Shown: positions 7,828-9,051 of the stretch, in pieces
Layout: each line of letters starts with the position of its first letter
How positions within the stretch are numbered: position 1 is the first letter of the stretch
NCBI GenBank assembly: GCA_002729235.1
Contig: PBTY01000071.1
Span: 1-42,927, forward strand
Length of the DNA stretch: 42,927 bases
Source: Rickettsiales bacterium
GTDB lineage: Bacteria; Bacteroidota; Bacteroidia; Cytophagales; Cyclobacteriaceae
Direction: 5' to 3'
Made by a program: the position numbers and the translations under genes
The notes under the pieces: generated by a model
What the model saw: the letters and a program-made list of their open reading frames with translations, nothing else
Told to the model about the DNA's origin: nothing
The model's database searches: none

Positions 7828-8229
7828 ATGAGTCGTCCAGAGAAACTTGAGATACTTTATGTAGATGATGAGCCAGCGAACTTGAGGAGTTTCAAGTCGG
7901 CGTTCAGACGTTTGTATAAGGTTCATATTGCTGAGCATCCTACACAAGCTATGGAGTTAGTGAAAGAAAAGGATTTGAAAATCGTGGTTTCGGATCATAG
8001 AATGCCAGATCTAGTAGGAACGGACTTCCTCAGAGAAGTACACGCTTATAATGATAAGATCAAGCGCGTTATATTGAGTGGCTTTGTTTCTAAAGAGGAA
8101 TTATTAGAGGCAAACAATTCTTTCGGCTTACATGCTTACATCCCAAAACCATGGGATTTTGAGGATGTTAATGCAACTTTTGAAAGGTTACTCTCGCAGG
8201 AAGAGTCTCCAAAAATGAATTACGAATAA
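7828..8229 (+). CDS. Stand-alone response regulator receiver protein
   Basis: A 133-residue single CheY-like receiver domain without an output domain. Seen: acidic pair Asp13-Asp14, phospho-acceptor Asp56 in VVSDHRMP, Ser84 at the Thr/Ser switch position (ILSGF), and Lys107 in IPKPWDF. The PKPW ending is common in receivers linked to HD-GYP and histidine kinase systems. It probably receives phosphate from a sensor kinase encoded elsewhere, since no kinase is nearby. It is transcribed alone and ended by a strong terminator. Just downstream lies the candidate sigma-54 small RNA; any link between them is only positional. Confidence 0.92.
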   Translation: MSRPEKLEILYVDDEPANLRSFKSAFRRLYKVHIAEHPTQAMELVKEKDLKIVVSDHRMPDLVGTDFLREVHAYNDKIKRVILSGFVSKEELLEANNSFGLHAYIPKPWDFEDVNATFERLLSQEESPKMNYE

Positions 8230-8250: not shown

Positions 8251-8286
8251 AAAACCCTTCTCTTTTCTAAAAGAGAAGGGTTTTTT
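8251..8286 (+). terminator. Intrinsic terminator of the receiver gene
   Basis: Perfect stem CCCTTCTCTTTT / AAAAGAGAAGGG (8255-8266 and 8269-8280) followed by six T, 25 bases after the stop. The A tract before it makes it symmetrical. Confidence 0.92.
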
Positions 8287-8393
8287 CATTTTGATAAAAA
8301 ATCAAAAAGCTAAAATTCCCAAAATCCTCTCTTAATGTCTTTAAATCCTCTTTTTAGAATGTTTACCTAAAATTCTGGATTCACTTTCTTGTT

Positions 8394-8410
8394 TTGGCAC
8401 GGTAATCGCT
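8394..8410 (+). promoter_or_regulatory. Sigma-54 (RpoN) -24/-12 promoter
   Basis: TTGGCACGGTAATCGCT fits the sigma-54 consensus YTGGCACGRNNNTTGCW at all but one defined position (C for the second T of the -12 half). The invariant GG (8396-8397) and GC (8408-8409) have the exact required spacing. This places the transcription start near 8421. No gene begins until 8665. Sigma-54 promoters need an enhancer-binding activator; I see no obvious binding palindrome within 150 bases upstream. Confidence 0.6.
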
Positions 8411-8420
8411 ATTTAGTAAT

Positions 8421-8511
8421 CAGGTTAGTTAATAAAATATTTAAGAATAACTTTTTAGTTAGGTTAGGTTGGTGATTAGCTCCCCTCGTTCCAGAGGGGG
8501 GCTTTCTTTTT
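8421..8511 (+). ncRNA. Candidate sigma-54-dependent small RNA
   Basis: The interval from the predicted sigma-54 start to the terminator T tract is about 91 bases. It contains no ATG and no plausible ORF. Internally it is AT-rich with repeated GTTAG motifs (GGTTAG, AGTTAGGTTAGG) that could be single-stranded target-binding sequence, and it ends in the hairpin at 8478-8503. A promoter and terminator this close together with nothing coding between them is the usual layout of a bacterial small RNA. It is a prediction from sequence only and I know no named family that it matches. Confidence 0.45.
8478..8511 (+). terminator. Intrinsic terminator in the 8230-8664 gap
   Basis: Stem AGCTCCCCTC (8478-8487) with GAGGGGGGCT (8494-8503), one wobble pair, loop of six, followed by TTCTTTTT. 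It follows no coding sequence: the receiver gene already has its own terminator at 8251-8286, so it appears to serve the candidate small RNA. Confidence 0.85.
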
Positions 8512-8581
8512 ATTAACAGGTTTTGATGGGGTTGTTAATCCAATGCTTTCAGATATTTAAGTAAGGATAAGTAGTCAAGAT

Positions 8582-8589
8582 TACATTTG
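8582..8589 (+). promoter_or_regulatory. Possible -7 box of the DoxX-like gene
   Basis: TACATTTG matches TAnnTTTG exactly, 75 bases before the ATG at 8665, with no clear -33 TTG. The rest of 8512-8664 holds nothing I can name. Confidence 0.33.
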
Positions 8590-8664
8590 GTTAACAATTG
8601 GTATTGGTCTTCTTGATTGATAAAAATGATTTTAATTATCTTCAATTAACTAAACTATAACCCT

Positions 8665-9051
8665 ATGAAAATCATCTTTGAATGGCTACTCAGCATTCTC
8701 GCAGCATTTCTTCTTCTACAAACCCTATTTTTTAAGTTTTCTGGAAGTGACGAAAGTATTTACATTTTTACTCAAGTAGGCATGGAGCCATGGGGACGGT
8801 ATGCATCTGGTATTGCAGAGTTAATCGCTGGTATCTTATTGTTATGGCCTAAATACCGTGTTTATGGAGCTCTCCTTGCTCTTGGGGTGATCTCCGGGGC
8901 TATATTTTTTCATTTGACAAAGCTGGGTATAGAAGTAATGGATGACGATGGGTTGCTGTTTTACTATGCAATAACAGTATTCATGAGTTGTGTGCTTCTA
9001 CTTTTTATGAGAAAAGAAGATTTGCCCTTTATTGGAAAACAAACCGCATGA
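8665..9051 (+). CDS. DoxX-like four-helix membrane protein
   Basis: A 128-residue inner-membrane protein with four predicted helices (about 5-24, 47-62, 66-86, 98-115). The arrangement FFKFSGSDESIYIFTQVGMEPWGRYASGIAEL, a short loop and then a helix beginning with a Gly/Ile/Ala-rich segment, is the usual DoxX/DoxX-like pattern. Members are linked variously to quinone chemistry and redox defence, but no catalytic residues are defined, so no reaction is assigned. It lies 18 bases before the helicase gene and may be co-transcribed with it, though the functions do not suggest a link. Confidence 0.78.
   Translation: MKIIFEWLLSILAAFLLLQTLFFKFSGSDESIYIFTQVGMEPWGRYASGIAELIAGILLLWPKYRVYGALLALGVISGAIFFHLTKLGIEVMDDDGLLFYYAITVFMSCVLLLFMRKEDLPFIGKQTA

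Follow-up and report, generated by a model that had tools for sequence, protein, structure and literature searches.

The Qrr RNAs of Vibrio are about 100 nt long, end at an intrinsic terminator, and occur several to a genome, with all copies driven by sigma-54, and Rfam includes a model of them. CrcZ and CrcY of Pseudomonas, likewise paralogs under sigma-54 control, contain a short motif in repeated form, and CrcZ titrates Hfq via A-rich motifs. In the Bacteroidota, a phylum that is not known to have Hfq, Bacteroides and a small number of flavobacteria are the main sources of knowledge on small RNAs, and no protein is known to take the place of Hfq there. FopS and GibS of Bacteroides are described as RbpB-associated RNAs that pair near the start codons of SusC-type genes, with copies that are mostly intergenic and one that is derived from a 3′ UTR; the same report states that a FopS model was deposited in Rfam (PMC11697453). 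In Flavobacterium psychrophilum, the conserved small RNA Rfp18 is described as having one region that is predicted to pair with several target mRNAs (PMC9723704).

The locus compared here with these systems lies in a window of 42,927 nt (the whole stretch of DNA that was analyzed). As far as the published description goes, the window family resembles FopS and GibS in consisting of multicopy noncoding RNAs of Bacteroidota in which a single conserved block is combined with an intrinsic terminator, and a pairing role for the conserved element would match the arrangement shown for FopS (PMC11697453). The two differ in that FopS copies are described with housekeeping sigma-ABfr promoters whereas the window RNA has a sigma-54-type site, and in that the conserved block sits at the 5′ end of FopS but abuts the 3′ terminator in the window family (PMC11697453). 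No match of FopS or GibS to the window was found in the Rfam copy used, which may not hold the FopS model. Rfp18, compared with the window RNA by description only, is similar as a conserved Bacteroidota small RNA with a single pairing region, which in its case is the third stem-loop (PMC9723704). The family resembles CrcZ and CrcY in its paralogs with a repeated short motif and in probable sigma-54 control, whereas its motif is G/U-rich and abuts the terminator.

The earlier note had named Qrr as the closest parallel. A predicted sigma-54 promoter, a length of ~91 nt, an intrinsic terminator, and several copies per genome fit this comparison, whereas family members outside the type represented in the window (type A, see below) have no sigma-54 site, and the parallel proved a loose one: comparison with the Rfam covariance models gave no match to Qrr or any other family at gathering scores over the whole window, and the six sub-threshold matches in 8300-8600 (up to E 5) included neither Qrr nor any known small RNA of such kind. 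Literature searches on the letters of the element, on small RNAs of Marinoscillum, and on sigma-54-driven small RNAs in Bacteroidota found none. We regard the window RNA as a member of a paralogous small RNA family whose unusual trait is probable sigma-54 control of one copy; its previous description as an orphan is wrong, since the locus has paralogs. The family is compact, with a single invariant 16-nt element and copies under differing promoter types, and so opens the sigma-54 regulon as well as the question of pairing or protein binding to direct tests.

Promoter site and predicted transcription unit

The letters of 8394-8411 (TTGGCACGGTAATCGCTA) place GG at 8396-8397 and GC at 8408-8409, a spacing of 12, and depart at a single position from TGGCACG-N4-TTGCW, the sigma-54 -24/-12 consensus used for scoring, in agreement with the near-consensus, correctly spaced site reported for this gap beforehand (Table 1). 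Across 20 stretches of 20 kb from the same genome plus the window (443 kb of 6.55 Mb, both strands; 885,182 positions), it was the sole site scoring at least 11 of 12. Thirty others scored 10, and the 12 others at 10 or above that keep both GG and GC all lie inside open frames of at least 234 codons, while the 8394 site lies in a gap. The genome encodes rpoN (PF04552, one match, E 1e-55), and the sigma-54 activator domain PF00158 gave nine matches, five of them full-length (E 2e-66 or better) and four weak and unspecific. One full-length activator domain is found at G000:C72:57960-58460, on the same contig outside the window and ~50 kb from the RNA gene. An inverted-repeat scan upstream of the -24 gave no clear activator site. 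Sigma-54 most likely switches on the predicted small RNA gene at 8421.

Table 1. Features at and around the small RNA locus, in window coordinates
Feature	Position	Strand	Basis
Single-domain response regulator receiver	7828..8229	+	Pfam Response_reg PF00072 E 2e-17; upstream neighbor in 6/6
Separate terminator behind receiver gene	8251..8284	both strands in scan	16-nt perfect inverted repeat
Sigma-54-type -24/-12 promoter TTGGCACGGTAATCGCT	8394..8410	+	consensus score 11/12; ortholog conservation
Predicted small RNA, ~91 nt	8421..8511	+	start inferred 12 nt past GC
Conserved element TTTTTAGTT-AGGTTAGGTTGGTGAT (possible pairing seed or site for a protein)	8452..8476	+	94% identity in genus
Small-RNA intrinsic terminator	8478..8511	+	10 pairs + T tail; covarying helix in 31 sequences
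DoxX-like membrane protein	8665..9051	+	DoxX_2 E 2e-5, slightly under cut-off; synteny

In a DNA search with 8380-8520, each of the five remaining Marinoscillum genomes proved to have the locus, and the gene order—receiver gene, RNA, DoxX-like gene—is syntenic in all six, with the DoxX-like gene directly next downstream in four and a 530-aa gene intervening in G002 and G004. The -24 TGGCA is retained in six of six orthologs and the -12 GC in four (GT in G003 and G004), the second T of TTGC is substituted in all six, and the promoter scores were 11, 11, 11, 9, 10, and 10 of 12. Mean pairwise identity across the six genomes was 0.38 over 60 alignment columns preceding the promoter, 0.78 over the promoter itself, 0.36 in the interior between promoter and element, 0.94 in the 29-column element block around AGGTTAGGTTGGTGAT, and 0.51 behind the element, which leaves two conserved islands at the locus, the promoter and the element block. 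The earlier note's expectation that promoter and hairpin would be conserved in near relatives around a variable interior was thus borne out. Of the repeated GTTAG motifs that it named as candidate seeds, the 3′ block at 8457-8476 is the only conserved one; the GGTTAG at 8423 is not conserved.

The hairpin at 8478-8503 has seven G-C pairs among its 10 and is followed by TTTCTTTTT; its fold energy of -20.0 kcal/mol (z -4.8) was equaled by none of 200 shuffles, and it is present in both the lowest-energy and the centroid fold. An intrinsic terminator about 90 nt past the predicted start with no ATG between had been proposed, and the hairpin, its T tail, and an ATG count of zero in 8421-8511 accord with this, as does the perfect inverted repeat at 8251-8284 with the claim that the receiver gene has a terminator of its own. 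Because there is no ATG and the spacing between promoter and element is free—a variable distance that argues against a coding role—we judge the RNA to be noncoding. Promoter, lack of an ATG, terminator, and synteny together mark 8421-8511 as a predicted free-standing noncoding transcription unit. At sequence level, the anatomy of the gene, the conservation of its promoter, and its membership in a family (below) are established, and the earlier reading of the interval as a candidate small RNA is supported by the conservation of promoter and hairpin and by the presence of rpoN.

Extent of the RNA family and its copies

Within the taxonomic family, the 16-mer AGGTTAGGTTGGTGAT occurs with at most one mismatch at 87 places in 63 of 295 genomes and exactly at 28 places in 24 of them, compared with 64 places, one of them exact, for the reversed 16-mer in the same 295 genomes. 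The places with one mismatch are therefore mostly background (59 versus 63 reversed), whereas the exact ones are not (28 versus 1). A hairpin with a T tail stands directly behind all 28 exact elements, a count made up of 27 distinct places plus G002, whose element flanks equal those of the window. Scanning a collection of 84,980 species returned 25 stretches, 20 assigned to genomes of the family and five to unrelated taxa; no hairpin follows any of these five exact matches, nor, by eye, any of the four exact matches in viral contigs.

The hairpin begins 0 to 2 nt behind the element in 31 aligned members, and its helix covaries: 81.6% of cells are paired, and there are 54 double-change cells against 20.1 in shuffled alignments, none of 500 being as high, with two of the five covariation measures falling within the shuffle range (double-change pairs, 112/500 as high; further pair types, 39/500). 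The 21 sequences from outside the genus showed the same behavior, and R2, a covariance model built from these 21 only, matches 8448-8513 at E 4e-14 in 469 kb. It also detects all five orthologs (E 5e-10 or better) and, within the window's genome, a pair of diverged copies (4e-8 and 9e-7); all of these E-values are rough. Across the class, R2 at E 1e-6 found 4 of 295 genomes, the window's genome among them. The family is most likely an undescribed one; in its members the 5′ part varies, AGGUUAGGUUGGUGAU is nearly invariant, and the terminator that follows immediately differs in sequence from copy to copy.

Another model, R1, matched 85 of 390 genomes across the order at E 0.001 or better; most of the 28 loci inspected looked, by eye, like other terminators with a partial TTAGGTT and were not counted as members. 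L169-L172, which belong to another taxonomic family (E 1e-7 or better), carry TTAGATTAGGTTGGTGAT before the hairpin and may be true relatives. A general terminator element was also considered and rejected: among 65 terminators in 443 kb, the one at 8478 matches the element at 16 of 16 positions, L240 at 12, and the rest at 10 or fewer (two controls reach 10 and 11), and because only 2 of 65 reach at least 12 matches, the element is not a general feature of terminators.

The 8421 locus, type A, is present in all six Marinoscillum genomes, and there are two or more additional copies in the genus. Type B, found in six of six if the weaker G005 copy L149 is counted, is flanked by a divergent gene on one side and an S1/P1 nuclease gene on the other. 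In this setting the upstream gene starts alike, by eye, in 20 of the 29 loci compared (15 from other genera); the single upstream gene examined by domain search corresponds to the beginning of Mfd (UvrB_inter; TIGR00580, fragment match), and the nuclease assignment was checked for two of the downstream genes. The most widespread copy has a divergent mfd-like gene on one side of its gap and, in many cases, an S1/P1 nuclease gene on the other (L074 1253-1614, L038, L069-L073, L084-L097). Type C (AGGTTAGGCGGTGAT) is again present in six of six genomes; in the window's genome (L371:2807-2877 = G000:C21:44806-44875) its neighbors encode a peptide methionine sulfoxide reductase on one side and an M61 peptidase on the other. 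Type D (L372) is more diverged and stands behind a coding frame, and downstream genes differ among the copies. Element-like TTAGGTTAGGTTGGT or TTAGATTAGGTTGGTGAT was seen directly before terminators at L318, L320, L378, L372, and L169-L172, some of these loci being at apparent gene 3′ ends and some outside the taxonomic family.

With no shuffled control for either observation, TGGCAY at promoter distance was found in type A only and is absent from non-A members, and 15 of 26 non-A members have TGNAACNTT at a distance of 75-90 nt upstream of the element. The latter is perhaps an ECF-type -35, which would place the mfd-linked copy under an ECF-type promoter; the CGT -10 box described in flavobacteria (PMC9723704) lends this reading some help.

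Pairing or protein binding by the conserved element

We favor, with somewhat more confidence than doubt, a reading in which the locus encodes a sigma-54-driven, free-standing small RNA of a paralogous family whose element is a shared seed pairing with mRNAs near start codons. Sigma-54 polymerase, with opening brought about by an enhancer-binding activator encoded in the genome, would initiate near 8421, and transcription would end at the 8478-8511 terminator to give a noncoding RNA of ~91 nt. The element would act as the shared base-pairing seed, binding mRNAs near start codons through its complement AUCACCAACCUAACCU, and paralogs under different promoters (sigma-54; perhaps ECF-type, mfd-linked) would feed different signals into one target set. 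Transcription, dependence on sigma-54, and base pairing, with repression as its sign, are the parts of this scheme that we infer. If the pairing reading is true, AUCACCAACCUAACC-like start regions are expected in the bound mRNAs.

Removing 23 element loci and the genus's own copies from the 87 places left a target set of 50 distinct places; the loci excluded as elements include L086 and L089, which have no hairpin directly behind, and the retained places include L267, which has one. In the strict window, defined as complementary one-mismatch sites 10-35 nt before a frame start, sites at start codons were found at 7 of 50 places and, in the reversed control, at 3 of 64 (p 0.08; p 0.039 with two homologous control rows merged). 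In a wide window on either strand, 12 of 51 places lay near a start codon versus 6 of 29 control places, the control being drawn from 30 of 64 loci. The 12-mer CACCAACCTAAC before ATG occurs at 34 places in 30 of 295 genomes, against 41 for the backwards pattern; among the 30 of these 34 places that were inspected, at least 10 are the RNA genes themselves and five precede a frame of at least 150 codons starting there. A CACCAACCTAAC immediately preceding the start codon ATG of a long frame was present in 3 of 28 RNA-bearing genomes versus 2 of 267 without the RNA (p 0.007, with groups set post hoc). Genome-wide, the element or its complement at up to three mismatches showed no excess, either in the window's genome (93 versus 137 reversed) or over six genomes (515 versus 606 reversed), and the element is no more open than its surroundings in the predicted fold (mean unpaired 0.46 versus 0.45).

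Because these pairing tests are weak, with no genome-wide excess and an element that is not especially open, protein docking is a serious rival and the main one, though we lean against it. It accepts the gene and its family as real and has the element dock an RNA-binding protein, which could be either a chaperone or some regulator titrated by the RNA, with the invariant GGUUAGGUUGGUGA and the terminator forming a portable 3′ module and any target pairing left to the variable 5′ part. Such docking would suit the close spacing of element and hairpin in the 31 members regardless of promoter or 5′ part, the related copies seen by eye at apparent gene 3′ ends (type D at L372, L378, L318, and L320), the recurrence of GG every 4-5 nt in the element, and the lack of a clear target excess, and RbpB of Bacteroides is described as binding a multicopy small RNA family (PMC11697453). 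A narrower form, in which Cytophagales RNAs share AGGUUAGGUUGGUGAU and the terminator as a portable 3′ module for docking an RNA chaperone, a counterpart of the Hfq-binding tail, seems to us unlikely; if it were true, sigma-54-driven, perhaps ECF-driven, and 3′ UTR-derived RNAs would all carry the AGGUUAGGUUGGUGAU module. Against docking, an invariant string of 16 nt is long for a protein site, few terminators carry the element (the two at 12 matches or more), and complementary sites before start codons are weakly enriched in RNA-bearing genomes.

The remaining rivals concern the promoter and the hairpin. We think it quite unlikely that the small RNA gene is real but transcribed by another holoenzyme, the -24/-12 likeness being coincidental or decayed, a reading compatible with either a seed or docking: the missing -12 GC in two of six genomes and the restriction of TGGCAY to type A would fit it, whereas the 8394 site is the best of 885,182 positions and the promoter persists as a conserved island between diverged flanks in six genomes. 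Very unlikely, in our judgment, is a cis-acting leader or attenuator whose hairpin governs read-through into the DoxX-like gene at 8665. That gene does lie on the same strand and comes next in four of six genomes, yet the 530-aa gene intervenes in the other two, paralogs precede S1/P1 nuclease or other genes, and both predicted folds retain the terminator hairpin. A promoter-like sequence standing by chance next to a leftover terminator, without a transcript, is scarcely credible: that the gene is known here from sequence alone leaves some room for it, but conservation, covariation, and paralogs all speak against it.

As to the favored reading, in which the element pairs with mRNAs, the candidate targets had no gene in common by eye; among the candidate genes, again by eye, are those for a GH32 enzyme, for permeases of sugars and of gluconate, and for small secreted proteins. 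The best target candidate in the genome that contains the window is a one-mismatch complement at L370:4719-4734, which stands just before a 114-aa frame (no Pfam family) that is followed by a globin gene.
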